26,785 nt of DNA from a virus. The stretch spans positions 1 through 26,785 of the IMG/VR virus record IMGVR_UViG_3300036861_000139; one strand, 5' to 3'. Each line of letters starts with the position of its first letter. Position 1 is the first letter of the stretch. A model generated the notes under the pieces. That model searched no databases, was not told the DNA's origin, and saw only the letters and a program-made list of their open reading frames with translations. Positions 6,187-16,646 of the stretch are shown here, piece after piece. The position numbers and the translations under genes were made by a program.

Positions 6187-6510
6187 GTGAGCGACACGAG
6201 ATACACCCTGCTGCTGTCCCTGTGGAGAACCTTCATCCCCTACCTGGTCGGGTATCTGGGGGCACAGGCTGCCCGGTACGGGCTGGACATCGACGAAGCT
6301 TCTGTGGAGTCCTTCCTTGTCCTGTCCTTCGGCACGGTCTACTACGCTGCGGGCCGCTGGATGGAACAGAACGCGGACAAGCGCTGGGGCTGGTTCCTTG
6401 GCTACGCCAAGCAGCCGCTGTACCTGCGGGGGCGGCACCGCAAGCTCGTGGCGGAGGAGAAGGCTGGTCTCCCGATCGGGGTACCCGCCAGGACGGAGGA
6501 GAGCGCATGA
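6187..6510 (+). CDS. Small membrane protein with two predicted helices (holin-like topology)
   Basis: GTG 6187, seven nt after a GAAAGG ribosome binding site, gives 107 residues. Two hydrophobic stretches are visible: LSLWRTFIPYLVGYLGAQAA near 10-30, and VESFLVLSFGTVYYAAG near 39-56. They are joined by an acidic turn (LDIDEAS). The cytoplasmic-looking tail contains a GWFLGYAKQPLY element and a charged end. The layout resembles a family of small phage membrane proteins with a GWxLG tail motif. Its size and topology would suit a holin or holin-like protein, but no endolysin lies nearby, so that role is only inferred. The stop overlaps the next ATG (ATGA), coupling it to the DUF1360 gene. Confidence 0.65.
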   Translation: MSDTRYTLLLSLWRTFIPYLVGYLGAQAARYGLDIDEASVESFLVLSFGTVYYAAGRWMEQNADKRWGWFLGYAKQPLYLRGRHRKLVAEEKAGLPIGVPARTEESA

Positions 6511-6905
6511 GTCCTTGGTTCCTGCTGGCGGTCATGTCCCTGGCCACGTTCATGCTGACCCGGCTGGTGGTCGACCTGGACTTCCCGCCGGTGCTGTGGC
6601 TGCGTGACCGGGTCGTCGGCGGATGGCGTCCGATGACGGCGTCGGAGCACGCCGCGTACCGGCCCGACCGGGCGAACAAGCTGTTCAAGGTCATCGACGG
6701 GGAGGACTACCGGTGGATCGACCGCACCCCGTGGGTGCCCCTGTTCTTCTCCGACCTCATCTCCTGCCCGTGGTGCGCGGGAGGATGGCTGGCACTGGGG
6801 ATCACGGCGGGTACATGGTCAACCGTGGGCCTGCCGTTACCGCTGCTGATGTGGCCCGCCACGTGGGCTCTGGGCAGTTTGCTCGCAAGCCGCGACTGGG
6901 TTTAA
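6507..6905 (+). CDS. DUF1360 family membrane protein
   Basis: ATG 6507 (ATGA overlap) encodes 132 residues. An N-terminal transmembrane segment (WFLLAVMSLATFMLTRLVV) is followed by DFPPVLWLRDRV, then a polar region, then FFSDLISCPWCAGGWLALGI leading into one or two more hydrophobic stretches. A membrane segment followed by an LxxCPWCxGxW motif is the signature of DUF1360. Its function is not established; relatives occur in phages and in Bacillus. Here it is coupled to another membrane protein between terminase and portal, an unusual position in the virion cassette. A strong terminator follows 22 nt downstream. Confidence 0.75.
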   Translation: MSPWFLLAVMSLATFMLTRLVVDLDFPPVLWLRDRVVGGWRPMTASEHAAYRPDRANKLFKVIDGEDYRWIDRTPWVPLFFSDLISCPWCAGGWLALGITAGTWSTVGLPLPLLMWPATWALGSLLASRDWV

Positions 6906-12292: not shown

Positions 12293-14113
12293 ATGGCCCG
12301 TGATGAACTGTTTTCGGCCCCAGCGGATCTGACTCTGCTGAGCGTCGCCGACCTCACAGAGCTGCAGGACAAGGGCCGTGCGGAAATCGACCGGCTCAAC
12401 TCCGCAGACACCGAAGAGGTAAGCGGCGAGTCCGTCTCCCAGCGCATCGCCTACGCCAGCCGCGTGGCCGATGACCTGGACCGTATCTCCGCTGAACTGG
12501 AGGGCAAGCAGGCCACGGCCGCCAGGCTCGCTGAGCAGGCGCGCATCAAGGCAGCCGACCAGATGTCCGCCATCGCCGCGCGGGTCAACGGCCCGGTCGA
12601 GTCGGCCACCGAGACGGCGCCCGTCGCCGCTGCGGTAGACACCGAGGCCATCGCCAAGGCAACCGCGCAGGGAGTCACCGCCGCACTCGCCACGATGATG
12701 AGTGACCGGCGCGGCGGGCTCGACGCTGACACCATCTCCCGGCGTGCCACGGCTTCCCTGTCGGAGACCGCCCGCGTAGCCCCGGCCGCGCAGGTCTCCA
12801 CCCCGCGCCTCGCGGTCACCGCGTCGATCGACATTCCCGGTGTCAGCCACGGCTCCGAGCTCACCTCGATGGACTCCCTCGGCGAGGCCTTCGCCAAGAA
12901 GTCGCGGGCCATCCCGGTCAGTCGTTCTGGCTCGACCGACCAGGGTCACATCGTGGCCACGGTCAAGAACCGGTTCGACCACACGGTCGATGACCGTACC
13001 TCGTTCGCTCAGGTCGGCGAGCTGATCAACCACCTTACGCGGCAGGAGGTGAAGGAATCGCTCGTGGCCGGCGGTGGCTGGTGTGCCCCCTCCGAGACGC
13101 GCTACGACTTCTTCAACATCGCCTGTTCGGACGGCCTCATCGACCTGCCGACCGTGGGCATCACCCGGGGCGGCATCAAGTTCCCGATCTCCCCGTCGCT
13201 CGCCTCAGCTGTGGGCTCGACAGCTTTCGGTGGGTTCGCGGTCTCGTTCTCGAACACGTCGAACCCGTGGCTGTGGACCGAGGCCGATGACATTCTTACG
13301 GTCACCGGCTCGACCAACAAGCCGTGCATCCGGGTCCCTTGCCCGAGCTTCGACGAAGAGCGGCTTGAGTGCTACGGCATCTGCCTCACAGCAGGCAACC
13401 TGACCAACGACGCGTACCCCGAGGCCACCCAGAACACCATCCAGCTGCTCATGCAGGCGCACGAGCGGGCCATGAACGCCCGGCTCATCGCGCTCATGGT
13501 GGCCAACAGCTCTGCTGTCATCAGCACCAATGAGTTCGCCAACGGCGGTACGGCTGCCACGGCCAAGCCTGTCTTCCAACAGGTGTTGGGCGGCATCGAC
13601 CTCGGAGCCACCGACTACCGCGCCCGCTACGGCATGTGCACCGACGACATCCTTGAGGTCGTCGCTCCGTACTGGCTGCGCAACGTCATCCGCGCCGACC
13701 TGGCGTGGCGCACCGGCGTGGACATGCTCTCCGTCAGCGACCTGGCCATCACCTCGTTCTTCACGGACCGCAACCTGCGGGTCCAGTGGGTGAATGACTG
13801 GCAGGTGCGTGGGTCCGGCCAGTTCGGCAACGCCACCCCGATGACCGCGTGGCCGACCACAGCGGACGTGATGATCTTCGCGGCCGGTACGTTCATCCAT
13901 GGACAGGGAATGACCCTGGACCTCGGTGTCATCCGGGACAGTGTCCTGAACGCTGAGAACGACTACACCGCCGCGTGGAGCGAAGAGTGCCACCTCATCG
14001 CGGCCGTGGGCCACGAGTCGCGGCAGTACCGGATCACCTTCTCCGTGATGGGTGCCACCACCGTGGCGCAGGTGGTCCCGGGGACCAGCCTGGAATCCTT
14101 CCCCAACCTCTAG
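12293..14113 (+). CDS. Major capsid protein with N-terminal scaffold-like domain (HK97-type)
   Basis: This 606-residue protein lies directly downstream of the protease fusion, has its own terminator-promoter region, and has a strong ribosome binding site. Residues about 20-110 are a charged coiled-coil-like segment (DKGRAEIDRLNSAD and onwards), and the stretch to about 190 is Ala/Thr-rich. This is the expected layout of a cleavable scaffolding (delta) domain. From about residue 190 the sequence becomes a mixed alpha/beta body. It contains a long helix with ERAMNARLIALMVAN and a C-terminal part with WSEECHLIAAVGHESRQYRI, compatible with the HK97 fold. The capsid shell would be built from the processed C-terminal part. 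Assignment rests on position, size and layout rather than a diagnostic motif. Confidence 0.82.
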   Translation: MARDELFSAPADLTLLSVADLTELQDKGRAEIDRLNSADTEEVSGESVSQRIAYASRVADDLDRISAELEGKQATAARLAEQARIKAADQMSAIAARVNGPVESATETAPVAAAVDTEAIAKATAQGVTAALATMMSDRRGGLDADTISRRATASLSETARVAPAAQVSTPRLAVTASIDIPGVSHGSELTSMDSLGEAFAKKSRAIPVSRSGSTDQGHIVATVKNRFDHTVDDRTSFAQVGELINHLTRQEVKESLVAGGGWCAPSETRYDFFNIACSDGLIDLPTVGITRGGIKFPISPSLASAVGSTAFGGFAVSFSNTSNPWLWTEADDILTVTGSTNKPCIRVPCPSFDEERLECYGICLTAGNLTNDAYPEATQNTIQLLMQAHERAMNARLIALMVANSSAVISTNEFANGGTAATAKPVFQQVLGGIDLGATDYRARYGMCTDDILEVVAPYWLRNVIRADLAWRTGVDMLSVSDLAITSFFTDRNLRVQWVNDWQVRGSGQFGNATPMTAWPTTADVMIFAAGTFIHGQGMTLDLGVIRDSVLNAENDYTAAWSEECHLIAAVGHESRQYRITFSVMGATTVAQVVPGTSLESFPNL

Positions 14114-14139
14114 TCCGAACCTGAACCGGAGGTAGGCGC

Positions 14140-14400
14140 ATGGCTTCGTTCGACAGTCAGACACAGAGCATCCCCAACACAACTGCAACGAAGATCGTCA
14201 GTTCGGACAACTTCGATCGTCTCGTGTACATCCGTCAGTCCGTGGACACAAAGATGGCGTTCACCAGTGCGGGTGCGTCTACAGGAGCCGCTGTCTCTGT
14301 CGTGGGCGGGTCGTTTGTTCTTCCGGCTCGCGAAGAGTTGTGGGTCTACCACAGCTATGGGAGTACGCAACCTGTCGAGTTCGTAGTAACCGCTAAGTGA
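14140..14400 (+). CDS. Small beta-rich virion protein, possible capsid decoration
   Basis: ATG 14140, behind a GGAGGT site, gives 86 residues with no cysteine and an alternating polar/hydrophobic pattern: TATKIVSSDN, RLVYIRQSV, AAVSVVGGSF, ELWVYHSYG, VEFVVTAK. This suggests an all-beta sandwich. Small beta proteins immediately after the capsid gene are often decoration or head-fibre proteins, so that role is inferred from place and shape. The gene is less GC-rich than its neighbours. A few other phage families have similar small proteins of unknown role at this site, so the function remains open. Confidence 0.6.
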   Translation: MASFDSQTQSIPNTTATKIVSSDNFDRLVYIRQSVDTKMAFTSAGASTGAAVSVVGGSFVLPAREELWVYHSYGSTQPVEFVVTAK

Positions 14401-14407
14401 CTGCAGG

Positions 14408-14417
14408 GGAGGTGATC
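14408..14417 (+). promoter_or_regulatory. Perfect extended ribosome binding site
   Basis: GGAGGTGATC, fully complementary to the 16S rRNA 3' end, stands 9 nt (from GGAGG) before ATG 14422. It is the same decamer found before the 19-residue gene and implies heavy translation of the gene that follows. Confidence 0.75.
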
Positions 14418-14421
14418 GTCC

Positions 14422-15306
14422 ATGGCTATCGCACATAGCCCACTCGTTGACGCACCGGCGTTCACCCCCCTGCCCTATGGCCTGTGGGACACGGCGCAGC
14501 ACCCGGCTGCGCCCGCCCACTGGCAGCAAGGCGTCACGTGGATCGACCGGTGCCCCACCGGGGATACCACATACGACGAATGTCTCACGGTCACCGGAAC
14601 GGGCGAGGCGCCCCCTGCCCCGCCCGCCAAGACCGACAACGTCGTACAGACGCTGCGGGGAGCCACCGCGTTCACCGTGTTCGCCGAGTTCGACTGCTCT
14701 CCGGTCGGGCTCACGGACGCCGCGACAGTAGCGGCTGACTCCCTTGCCCGGGTGGAGCACTCGCAGGTCGAGGCTGCGTTCTGGACCGGCACGGCCGGCG
14801 GGCGCACCGTGGTGTTCCCGCATCTGGCGGCCAACGCCGAAGTGGTGGACTCCAGCGGCATCGTGCTCCAGCAGACCGCGACAGTCGCGGTCACCGGGGA
14901 TGACGTGGCCGTGAGTCTGGGCCAGCTGGAGCACCAGCTTGACCAGTGCCTGTCTGCCGAGGGAGTCATCCATATCCCCCGGTTCGCTCTCCCCACGTTC
15001 ACAGCGAACTTCCTGGTGACCGAAGTGAACGGCCAGCTGAGGACCCAGTCGGGGAACCTGGTGGTCGTCAGCGGCGACTACACCGGGTCGTCCCCGGCAG
15101 GTGCTGCTCCGGCTGCGGGCACGGCTTGGGTCTACGCCACCGGCCCGCTGTTCGCCTACCGGTCGGAGGTGTTCGCCACGCAGGTACCGGAGAGCTTCGA
15201 CCGCGCGGAGAACACGGTGAAGATGATCGCTGAGCGGACCTACGTAGTGGGATATTCTTGTTGCTTGCTGGCCACCCTGATTAATTTGGGGGTGCCGACA
15301 AGTTGA
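14422..15306 (+). CDS. Capsid-related virion protein; host gene of the endonuclease insertion
   Basis: This 294-residue protein opens MAIAHSPLVDAPAFTPLPYGLWD, and the PYGLW block is one I associate with actinobacteriophage virion proteins. The second half has an HK97-like rhythm: LGQLEHQLDQCL, VIHIPRFALPTF, LVVVSGDYTG, WVYATGPLFAYRSEVF, and AERTYVVGYSCC near the end. It could be a second capsid-type protein (for example a pentamer subunit), but I cannot prove this. It has six cysteines. The last 20 or so codons (from about 15240) switch to gta, gga, tat, tct, tgt, ttg, att, aat and aca, unlike the rest of the gene. The same 14-residue end is encoded again after the endonuclease, so this tail appears to be a recoded replacement. 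The stop lies 5 nt from the convergent endonuclease gene. Confidence 0.75.
   Translation: MAIAHSPLVDAPAFTPLPYGLWDTAQHPAAPAHWQQGVTWIDRCPTGDTTYDECLTVTGTGEAPPAPPAKTDNVVQTLRGATAFTVFAEFDCSPVGLTDAATVAADSLARVEHSQVEAAFWTGTAGGRTVVFPHLAANAEVVDSSGIVLQQTATVAVTGDDVAVSLGQLEHQLDQCLSAEGVIHIPRFALPTFTANFLVTEVNGQLRTQSGNLVVVSGDYTGSSPAGAAPAAGTAWVYATGPLFAYRSEVFATQVPESFDRAENTVKMIAERTYVVGYSCCLLATLINLGVPTS
15259..15300 (+). repeat. Recoded copy of the host gene tail (CCLLATLINLGVPT)
   Basis: These 14 in-frame codons encode CCLLATLINLGVPT, the same peptide encoded at 15918-15959 beyond the endonuclease gene. Eleven codons differ, by twelve base changes in all, every one synonymous (for example tgt/tgc, ttg/ctg, aat/aac, ttg/ctc, aca/acc). 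This copy is AT-richer than the surrounding phage DNA; the downstream copy has the normal GC-rich codons. Recoding probably starts near 15240, where gta, gtg, gga, tat and tct appear. Confidence 0.85.
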
Positions 15307-15311
15307 ATACC

Positions 15312-15890
15312 CTAAAGGACTCTCTTCCGACGCTTCCCGTTACGGATCTGTCCCACGGTGGTGGGGTGCAGCCCGAGGCGATCGGCTATGACGTAGGTCC
15401 GCTCAGAGCTGGCGCGGATTTCCCTGACAGTCTCGTCGGAGATGCGGAACTGAGGGATCTTGGACCCACGGGCGGTGCGTCCGTGGCGCTCCCGATCATC
15501 CGCGTTCTCCTGGTAGGACCCCGCCCGAAGGTGCCGGGGGTTGACGCAACTAGGTTCCCCGCAAAGATGCCGCGTTACCTGGCCGAGACTCGTCAGGGTA
15601 CCGCCTGCCAAGAGAAGTGCGGCCCGGTGCATTCCGAGCTTCCGCCCGTTCATTCGGACCGACCCGTACCCTGCGGGAGCTGGAGAGAACGGGTGTCTAA
15701 CACACTCCTCTGTAGGGGTTTCCAAAAGAAGGCGCACGGTGTCCTGAAGCCAGCGCAGGGCAGTTCCGCGCTCCGTGCCCCCGGCCAGCGGGTCTCCGTA
15801 TTTCCGGTTCCGCTGGTAATGGACCGAACAAAGACCCTGGGCGTAGTGGGCCCGGGCACAGCCGGCGAGCGAACACAGTCTCTTCGTCAT
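15312..15890 (-). CDS. HNH homing endonuclease
   Basis: This minus-strand gene encodes 192 residues. The N-terminus (CSLAGCARAHYAQGLCSVHY, residues 6-25) is a Cys/His knuckle common in phage HNH proteins. The nuclease core has GKRLG-like RKLGMHRAALLLAGG, then VTRHLCGEPSCVNPRHL (H108, N117, H120, with C110 and C115) and SYQENADDRERHGR. This is the HNH_3-type ββα-metal layout. The C-terminus (IPQFRISDETVREI, then YVIADRLGLHPTTVGQIRNGK) is a helix-turn-helix that would bind the target. The gene is inserted between two structural genes transcribed the other way and is flanked by two copies of the host gene's tail. It has no ribosome binding site, but an extended -10 lies 6 nt before its ATG, suggesting leaderless expression. 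It probably cuts endonuclease-free alleles near the native tail. Confidence 0.9.
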   Translation of the reverse strand: MTKRLCSLAGCARAHYAQGLCSVHYQRNRKYGDPLAGGTERGTALRWLQDTVRLLLETPTEECVRHPFSPAPAGYGSVRMNGRKLGMHRAALLLAGGTLTSLGQVTRHLCGEPSCVNPRHLRAGSYQENADDRERHGRTARGSKIPQFRISDETVREIRASSERTYVIADRLGLHPTTVGQIRNGKRRKRVL

Positions 15891-15896
15891 GGAGAG

Positions 15897-15905
15897 AGTA
15901 TATCA
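15897..15905 (-). promoter_or_regulatory. Extended -10 promoter of the endonuclease gene
   Basis: Read on the minus strand, TGATATACT contains TATACT preceded by TGN, an extended -10. Six bases (CTCTCC) separate it from ATG 15890, so transcription would begin at or next to the start codon and give a leaderless mRNA. No -35 box of note was seen, which is usual for extended -10 promoters. Confidence 0.6.
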
Positions 15906-15908
15906 AAC

Positions 15909-15965
15909 GGCACTCGGTGCTGCCTGCTGGCAACCCTCATCAACCTCGGTGTCCCCACCGCGTAA
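15909..15965 (+). pseudogene. Remnant of the original 3' end of the capsid-related gene
   Basis: Reading ggc act cgg and then CCLLATLINLGVPTA with a TAA stop, this fragment repeats the end of the gene that stops at 15306, but in the phage's ordinary GC-rich codons. It has no start of its own. Its last bases run into GGAG, the ribosome binding site of the tail tube gene, so the remnant also preserves the native junction to the next gene. A + strand frame opposite the endonuclease runs into it, but this looks incidental. Confidence 0.8.
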
Positions 15966-15974
15966 GGAGTTGAC

Positions 15975-16646
15975 GTGGCTACATCTACTTGCGCAACGCC
16001 CATCAAGGGCACCGTTTTGCGCATCGTTGCCCTGGATGCCTGCGGCACCCCGGTTACCGGCTCCTCCGGACTGGTGGCTTCCAGTGCGGGGTTTGTCCAG
16101 GTCGAGATGGAACCGCAGTACGAGGATGGGGAGGAGTTCTTCGAGCGCACCGCTTCCGGCGCGGCGTGCGTCAACCAGAAGGACGACCCGACCCTCAAGC
16201 GCATGCAGCTCACGGTGGACTGGTGTGAGATCAACGTCCTGCTGTCGTCCTACGTCATCGACGCACGCACGCTCGGGAGCGGCACGCCGGTCACCGGAAC
16301 GGGCTTCGCGGTGGCCGAGGGCAACGCCATCAACCGGTTCTCCATGGAAGTCTGGCAGCAGGTGGCCGGCTCCGGCGCCTGTGACGCGTCCGGCGCTCAG
16401 CGCTACATCTACAACGCGTGGCCGAACGTCGGCGCCACCCAGCTCGGTACGTACACCATCGAGAACGGCCGCTCCACGCTCCAGTTCATCTCCGAGACCA
16501 GGGGCGCCGGGCCGACGTGGGATACCCAGGTGGGAGCCAGCTGGCTCCCTGCCGGAGCATCCATCCTGACCGATGAGCACTGGATCTGGAATGTGACCAC
16601 CGTGGCGCCCCCGACTCCCGCGTGTGACACAACACTGCTGGTCTGA
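15975..16646 (+). CDS. Probable major tail (tube) protein
   Basis: GTG 15975, five nt after GGAG, encodes 223 residues starting MATSTCATPIKGTVLRIVAL. The pattern is FVQVEMEPQYEDGEEFFERTASGAACV, then LKRMQLTVDWCEIN, VTGTGFAVAEGNAINRFSMEVWQQ, and a C-terminal part with WDTQVGASWLP. It resembles actinobacteriophage tail tube proteins, which begin with a beta-strand carrying an EYxxGEE-type acidic loop and later have an EVW strand. The tube protein polymerises into the tail shaft. Assignment is from remembered pattern plus context and could be wrong in favour of another structural role. The ribosome binding site lies within the native tail left behind by the endonuclease insertion, so the insertion did not remove its translation signal. 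Confidence 0.65.
   Translation: MATSTCATPIKGTVLRIVALDACGTPVTGSSGLVASSAGFVQVEMEPQYEDGEEFFERTASGAACVNQKDDPTLKRMQLTVDWCEINVLLSSYVIDARTLGSGTPVTGTGFAVAEGNAINRFSMEVWQQVAGSGACDASGAQRYIYNAWPNVGATQLGTYTIENGRSTLQFISETRGAGPTWDTQVGASWLPAGASILTDEHWIWNVTTVAPPTPACDTTLLV

Follow-up and report, generated by a model that had tools for sequence, protein, structure and literature searches.

A phage HNH gene that lies between two synonymous copies of the end of a capsid gene

Homing genes that lie in coding sequence are usually thought to survive by splicing, by taking up an intergenic position, or by splitting a gene that tolerates it. Mobile open reading frames (ORFs) that replace the C-terminus of their host gene are known from fungal mitochondria: they have been described in atp6 of Allomyces macrogynus and in atp6, atp9, cox2, and nad3 of Glomus sp. 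(PMC3630166). In Glomus, the native C-terminus that is left stranded is 91-98% identical to empty relatives at the nucleotide level, versus 64-81% for the imported C-terminus; in the fungal atp6 copies, 91% of amino acids are conserved, and transcription of the imported end was shown by RT-PCR (PMC3630166). HomeR is an engineered Cas9 split home-and-rescue drive in Drosophila (PMC7968924). As for phages, T4-like phages contain the free-standing HNH genes mobA and mobE (PMC2988022), and in ShiLan, an HNH gene of 195 amino acids is inserted out of frame in an actinobacteriophage methylase gene (PMC11855218).

We analyzed a stretch of viral DNA of 26,785 nucleotides (IMG/VR record IMGVR_UViG_3300036861_000139; hereafter, the window), in which the peptide CCLLATLINLGVPT is encoded twice, on either side of an antisense HNH gene. 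The features of this region are listed below in window coordinates. Related loci without the insertion are termed empty alleles, and L052 is a second filled allele.

12293-14113, plus strand: major head protein (phrog_777), 606 amino acids, by PHROG match
14422-15245, plus strand: body of the capsid gene, with a predicted HK97 fold (phrog_779, E = 2e-44; AlphaFold and Foldseek); its codon divergence from the empty allele L021 is 33-40%, as for ordinary relatives
15246-15306, plus strand: replacement (recoded) 3' end of the capsid gene, VGYS + CCLLATLINLGVPTS + TGA, identified by its codons; the left edge is approximate
15312-15890, minus strand: HNH homing-endonuclease-like gene, 192 amino acids, of the HNH_3/phrog_59 type (beta-beta-alpha-Me), identified by profiles, motifs, and Foldseek
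15897-15902, minus strand: -10 element TATACT, identified by sequence, just ahead of the HNH gene's ATG; the extended form is TGATATACT at 15897-15905
15906-15912, no strand: right end of the element, AACGGCA, from comparing the window to L052, where it is conserved
15918-15965, plus strand: stranded native 3' end of the capsid gene, CCLLATLINLGVPTA + TAA, identified by its match to empty alleles and its position relative to the next gene
15975-16646, plus strand: next late gene, the major tail protein (phrog_792), which in nearly every empty allele comes directly after the capsid gene

CCLLATLINLGVPT corresponds to the last 14 codons ahead of the final serine codon of the capsid gene (14422-15306). 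The upstream copy is at 15259-15300 (TGTTGCTTGCTGGCCACCCTGATTAATTTGGGGGTGCCGACA) and the downstream copy is at 15918-15959 (TGCTGCCTGCTGGCAACCCTCATCAACCTCGGTGTCCCCACC); both read CCLLATLINLGVPT, with 12 of the 42 bases changed, in 11 of the 14 codons, and every change synonymous. An initial, sequence-only reading of the window had reported the duplicated end, these counts, and the HNH gene at 15312-15890 on the minus strand, all correctly. In a stop-anchored scan, the pair of tails scored 79, versus a background maximum of 53 from 402 random placements (excluding the window's self-matches), so the pair did not arise by chance. The same reading had also remarked on AT-rich codons in the upstream copy. 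The codons here are rare for the window phage (P = 5e-6 for the 20 codons at 15244-15303), and the atypical ones begin slightly before the duplicated peptide, at around 15244-15246, where GTA is the first. On the other side of the HNH gene, in both the window and L052, AACGGCA is followed by five variable bases and then by native TGCTGY. In the window, the native tail's stop codon is followed by GGAG and then by the GTG start at 15975.

The window also contains an exact inverted repeat of 16 nt, CTGAGCGGACCTACGT, with one arm in the capsid gene just 5' of the recoded tail (15230-15245, plus strand) and the other in the HNH gene (15391-15406, minus strand). Both arms read ERTYV in frame. Among the loci that we fetched, only the window's own record has this repeat, which may be due to chance, a template switch, or the capture of a fragment of the target.

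The capsid gene is placed between the major head protein and a small ORF on one side and the major tail protein on the other. An AlphaFold model of its protein (28 relatives; mean pLDDT of 72) matched HK97 heads and proheads in Foldseek with E values of about 1e-6 (the best was 6.5e-7, for an HK97 head); according to this model, the protein has the HK97 fold. The tail is modelled as the last beta strand (residues 282-288, in a block with pLDDT of 89), which a truncated protein would lose. The gene is presumably essential, and a relative from Gordonia is annotated as "major capsid pentamer protein." The region 12293-16646 includes two capsid genes, which encode the 606-amino-acid major head protein and, after the small ORF, the second HK97-fold protein. 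The latter belongs to phrog_779, whose function is listed as unknown in PHROGs, and it is possibly a separate pentamer protein.

We collected relatives of the capsid gene: 71 came from IMG/VR, and to these we added 80 rows of a profile scan and four contigs from Streptomyces. The 157 loci with the capsid gene, which include repeats of the same contigs, reduce to 90 distinct intact empty alleles. Just two of the 157 loci, the window and L052, have an HNH-bearing insertion at the end of the capsid gene; in other words, the insertion is optional at one fixed site (2 filled and 90 empty alleles). In nearly all of the empty alleles, the gap from the capsid gene's stop codon to the next gene is 0-40 nt, and two of them instead have an extra small gene there. 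Empty alleles end like the downstream copy, with CCLLAA..LGVPT., a stop codon, GGAG.., and a start codon. In particular, over 48 bases, the five closest of them share 37-40 with the downstream copy, versus 27-30 with the upstream copy. Relative to the next gene, the stranded tail is also positioned like the tails of the empty alleles, and it has the same GGAG-type context. From the resemblance of the tails, we conclude that the native tail of the gene is the one downstream and that the upstream copy is a newcomer that replaced it. When the window is compared to its empty relative L021, 86% of the codons for identical amino acids differ in the replacement tail, versus 33-40% upstream of it.

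That the element inserted before the original tail and brought a replacement had been proposed from the window alone, and the empty alleles and the second filled allele support this. The proposal predicted empty alleles that run from native codons directly into the downstream tail and the next gene's GGAG, which is what we see in all relatives whose 3' end is complete, except L052. Nor did the patterns that would have spoken against it turn up: the 90 distinct empty alleles include neither an AT-rich tail of the upstream type nor a tail that is tandemly duplicated without an endonuclease. We did not find a near-identical empty allele of the window phage, so the exact left boundary and the adjoining native bases cannot be read from the window. 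In a tree of the capsid gene without its tail (92 rows), the window groups with L021 and L052 groups with L123 and L119. The starred branches of this tree force two changes between the empty and filled states, and each filled allele groups with empty relatives.

The second filled allele (L052) is in the phage-plasmid pS1D4-14.2 of Streptomyces sp. S1D4-14 (NZ_CP041606.1), a linear record of 98.8 kb with phage head and tail genes. Its HNH gene is not annotated in the gene table of this record. The HNH protein is 59% identical to the window's, and the gene is at the same codon position and in the same antisense orientation. It is flanked by two copies of CCHLAALLNLGVPT, which differs from the window's tail peptide; between the copies, 12 of the 42 bases and 12 of the 14 codons have changed, again synonymously, and the stop codons differ as well. 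An empty relative of L052 (L051) has the same tail peptide in a protein that is 85% identical. Between these two, codon divergence is 27-33% in the gene body and 32% in the downstream tail, versus 68% in the upstream tail. We considered whether the arrangement might be an assembly artefact, which is ruled out by its presence in the complete plasmid of an isolate. We found only these two filled alleles of the element. At E <= 1e-15, the HNH protein had no match among 393 Streptomyces genomes (this search had no positive control), and a scan of genome contigs did not find further filled alleles. Sixteen of the 393 genomes have a relative of the capsid gene, mostly a distant one, and we looked at a minority of these one by one.

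Both replacement tails end with GGG GTG CCG ACA and TGA, with one additional serine codon before the stop codon in the window. At the same positions, the native copies have GGT GTC CCC ACC and GGC GTT CCC ACC, with TAA, and among 81 empty tails, GGG is present in 2 and CCG in 4. Since these codons are common to both replacement tails, the replacement tail probably shares descent with the endonuclease and travels with the element, with the caveat that four codons are a small sample. As a reference for the extent of recoding, we took the 363 pairs of empty alleles in which 12 or all 13 of the tail residues agree. In these pairs, an average of 19% of codons differ (at most 8 of 12), versus 10 of 13 and 11 of 13 in the two filled alleles: the replacement tails differ more than any natural pair that we found in this capsid gene family. 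Given the codon usage of the window phage, the base differences have P = 0.0009 for the window and P = 0.006 for L052 (using the same usage table). Under unbiased codon choice, they are no more than expected from saturation (P = 0.25 and 0.22, respectively). Selection for difference is thus unproved, because long evolution without codon bias would give equal divergence. The longest identical run in register between the two copies is 7 bases in the window and 5 bases in L052, which is far below the usual requirement for homologous recombination. Searching for the recoded tail as the ordinary tail of a known relative gave little: a degenerate peptide pattern matched only the contig of L013 in IMG/VR, and the shared recoded end matched only L052 and unrelated sequences.

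The window's HNH protein has an N-terminal Cys/His motif, an HNH core with all three catalytic residues (H88, N117, and H120), and a C-terminal HTH. It matches phrog_59 ("HNH endonuclease") with E = 4e-19 and Pfam's HNH_3 below the gathering cutoff, and its best matches in Foldseek are I-HmuI (1u3e) and I-PpoI (1evw), both weak. The PHROG and Pfam matches, the Cys/His motif, and the catalytic residues are consistent with a beta-beta-alpha-Me homing endonuclease. In L052, the first histidine (H88 in the window) is replaced by cysteine, so the L052 enzyme may be inactive; a few homologs have tyrosine or serine in this column. Both filled alleles have a -10 element just 5' of the HNH gene's ATG, and the window's HNH transcript is predicted to be leaderless. 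A consensus scan of the window did not find a paired -35 and -10. The predicted promoter of the L052 endonuclease is GTGACA-18-TATAAT (11 of 12 bases match; 6473-6502 of NZ_CP041606.1, minus strand). Its -35 box (GTGACA) falls within the native tail that the insertion stranded, so it seems that this displaced sequence has been put to new use as part of a promoter.

Antisense to the HNH gene, there is an open frame at 15303-15965 (plus strand) in the window, with a counterpart in L052 that ends at 6538 (plus strand). In both alleles, this frame overlaps the capsid gene's stop codon (TTGA/ATGA), in the -1 phase, and is in frame with the stranded native tail. We considered it as a read-through product and judged that it is probably a by-product of codon bias.

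Our main explanation, to which we assign a probability of roughly 0.8, is that the HNH gene invaded the 3' end of the capsid gene with its own replacement tail, which left the native tail stranded and a recoded tail to rescue the capsid protein. We propose that a free-standing HNH gene would insert into the capsid gene of a Streptomyces-type phage, just 5' of the codons for the last beta strand. The mobile unit would comprise a replacement 3' end that includes a stop codon, together with a convergent endonuclease gene that has a promoter of its own. The native tail would be left behind this promoter and the imported synonymous tail would complete the capsid protein; the stop codon in the replacement tail implies that only the imported C-terminus would be expressed with the gene body. 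The enzyme would then cut the empty alleles of co-infecting phages near the Ser/Glu-Cys-Cys junction, and repair templated by the filled allele would copy the unit into the cut allele. With a recoded tail, the capsid would remain functional, the cut site would not be rebuilt, and the imported tail would be too diverged to recombine out with the native one. From the sequences, we infer cleavage, homing, and immunity due to the recoded tail, as well as selection for codon divergence, against recombination or self-cleavage. The arrangement and its direction have strong support, and of the functional readings of this locus, a working "home-and-rescue" drive is the best one.

An alternative has the same insertion but takes the upstream tail to be the natural tail of a donor phage, which was co-converted with the endonuclease gene, so that the recoding was not selected. 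In the donor, the endonuclease would have been harmless because it was after the gene; one junction would have formed by homology and the other would be illegitimate. Co-conversion is the standard explanation for the mobile ORFs of fungi, in which the inserted C-terminus is interpreted as foreign (PMC3630166), and the empty allele L013 does share AAT, GTG CCG, and the Ser-TGA end with the window's upstream tail. However, no empty tail is near the upstream copies: the best cases differ at 4 of 9 and 5 of 9 codons for identical amino acids, and empty alleles with the same tail peptide never reach 10 of 13 codon differences. Also, both filled alleles match their host's own tail exactly in amino acids but not in codons. 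We consider a donor's natural tail to be unlikely, though it deserves to be taken seriously. Could the synonymous changes have been made by mutagenic repair of a double-strand break beside the insertion, with neither selection nor a donor? Repair after cutting has been proposed to raise polymorphism near intron sites (PMC5378118), but it should have hit the adjoining downstream copy too, which is native-like, and it would leave GGG GTG CCG ACA in two distant elements unexplained. This origin seems quite improbable.

The geometry of direct repeats would also fit a target-site or tandem duplication of the tail that later drifted, with the HNH gene arriving separately. However, none of the empty alleles has a duplicated tail, and the downstream copy, which is not translated, has no nonsynonymous changes while the upstream copy is saturated with synonymous ones. 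Because the untranslated copy still encodes the host's tail peptide, it has not been redundant for long, and we give such a history almost no weight. It would be nearly as surprising if the insertion were spliced or read through, as with a group I intron, an intein, or an out-of-frame HNH gene like ShiLan's, and if the match between the tails were incidental. In ShiLan, an in-frame insertion that conceals an HNH has been documented (PMC11855218), and the window and L052 both have an open frame on the strand opposite the HNH gene that runs into the native tail. But this frame is codon-aligned with the HNH gene, as expected in GC-rich DNA, and is in the -1 phase to the capsid gene, which has a complete tail and a stop codon before the HNH gene. 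We also did not recognize a group I intron or intein splicing element in either filled allele, and neither has an intron match in Rfam.

We surveyed other HNH genes for synonymous tail duplicates, as the sequence-only reading had suggested. We applied the stop-anchored scan to 134 HNH places, which belong to 128 loci. Apart from the window, it picked up a duplicated tail in just the L052 element and, with a weaker score below the background maximum, in Rhizobium phage RHph_Y25. (An ungapped peptide scan without stop-codon anchoring was too noisy, with the 95% level of its background at 71.) L246 had a high scan score, and we set it aside as a probable tandem-HNH repeat. In RHph_Y25 (MN988538.1, 2300-3115), the HNH protein ends in TAQAEWERQRKERGE, which is fused in frame; in the empty relatives RHph_N2 and RHph_Y1_10, almost identical DNA forms the last part of a short gene that immediately precedes xis. 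However, the gene upstream of the HNH gene in RHph_Y25 has a different body, and the changes in its tail are not all synonymous. The annotated start of this HNH gene (2615) misses an in-frame ATG at 2354. In L316 (actinobacterial genome G624, 1393-1941), a RuvC-like gene ends with HPIDDLPKSHLDAMTKVQWPE.. and the next gene, which encodes an HNH protein, ends with HVLDDLPAAHLAAMAKVEWPE.., with a score of 84 in the class-level search. Other RuvC-like genes have a comparable end motif. L316 is possibly a tail-displacing insertion in a RuvC-like resolvase gene, with the second copy of the tail fused to the C-terminus of the HNH protein. RHph_Y25 and L316 suggest that tail duplication recurs in this HNH clade; they are leads, not proof. 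More broadly, there might be a class of phage homing genes whose rescue tails are selected for the same protein but different DNA, as natural home-and-rescue drives, which would recur in the capsid gene (twice), a RuvC-like gene (L316), and the gene before xis (RHph_Y25). In such a class, displaced tails could be reused, as the -35 box of L052 or as the C-terminus of the endonuclease in L316 and RHph_Y25. We hold this generalization only tentatively, at somewhat below even odds.

If the main explanation is correct, then importing its own gene end would be a further route by which a phage homing gene can persist. Such an element could occupy a conserved capsid gene without splicing, at a site where escape mutations should be costly, by the same logic as engineered home-and-rescue drives. 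Because the plasmid with one of the filled alleles belongs to a Streptomyces isolate that has been sequenced, cleavage, immunity of the tail, and homing are directly testable. Also, tail swaps can mislead annotation and phylogeny at the ends of genes.

In the open-licence literature (mostly titles and abstracts), we did not find a phage case of a homing gene with a replacement tail, and the sequence-only reading had not known of one either. It had named the mobile ORF in fungal mitochondrial atp6 as the closest precedent, which is the right one and a closer match than it had suggested (PMC3630166). As in the fungal cases, a conserved gene has an endonuclease ORF close to its 3' end, the part of the gene upstream of this ORF is completed by an imported C-terminus, and the native C-terminus, which is stranded downstream, is closest to empty relatives. 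The fungal ORFs are mitochondrial, encode LAGLIDADG or GIY-YIG proteins, and are sometimes fused in frame with the host gene; in contrast, the phage element is in a capsid gene, encodes an HNH protein, is antisense with its own promoter, and has a wholly synonymous tail. Unlike them, it was found twice at one site with common tail codons. Given the different endonuclease family and the lack of a mitochondrial lineage, the phage and fungal elements are alike in how they work, not in descent.

Like HomeR, the phage element is directed at the 3' end of the coding sequence of an important gene, relies on that gene's promoter, and has a recoded 3' end that would restore the gene (PMC7968924). HomeR was designed, whereas the phage element is natural, with a putative cleavage activity. 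As with mobA and mobE, the HNH gene lacks an intron or intein and the insertion is missing from relatives; the T4 genes split the host gene into two polypeptides, and no replacement 3' end is described in the available part of that report (PMC2988022). ShiLan resembles our locus in having an HNH gene within the gene for a phage protein, no splicing element, a host function that is apparently spared, and a proposed leaderless start, but its host frame is open through the insert and no tail duplication was reported (PMC11855218). Overall, the phage capsid case is a further variant of an architecture that is known from fungal mitochondria and is paralleled by engineered drives.
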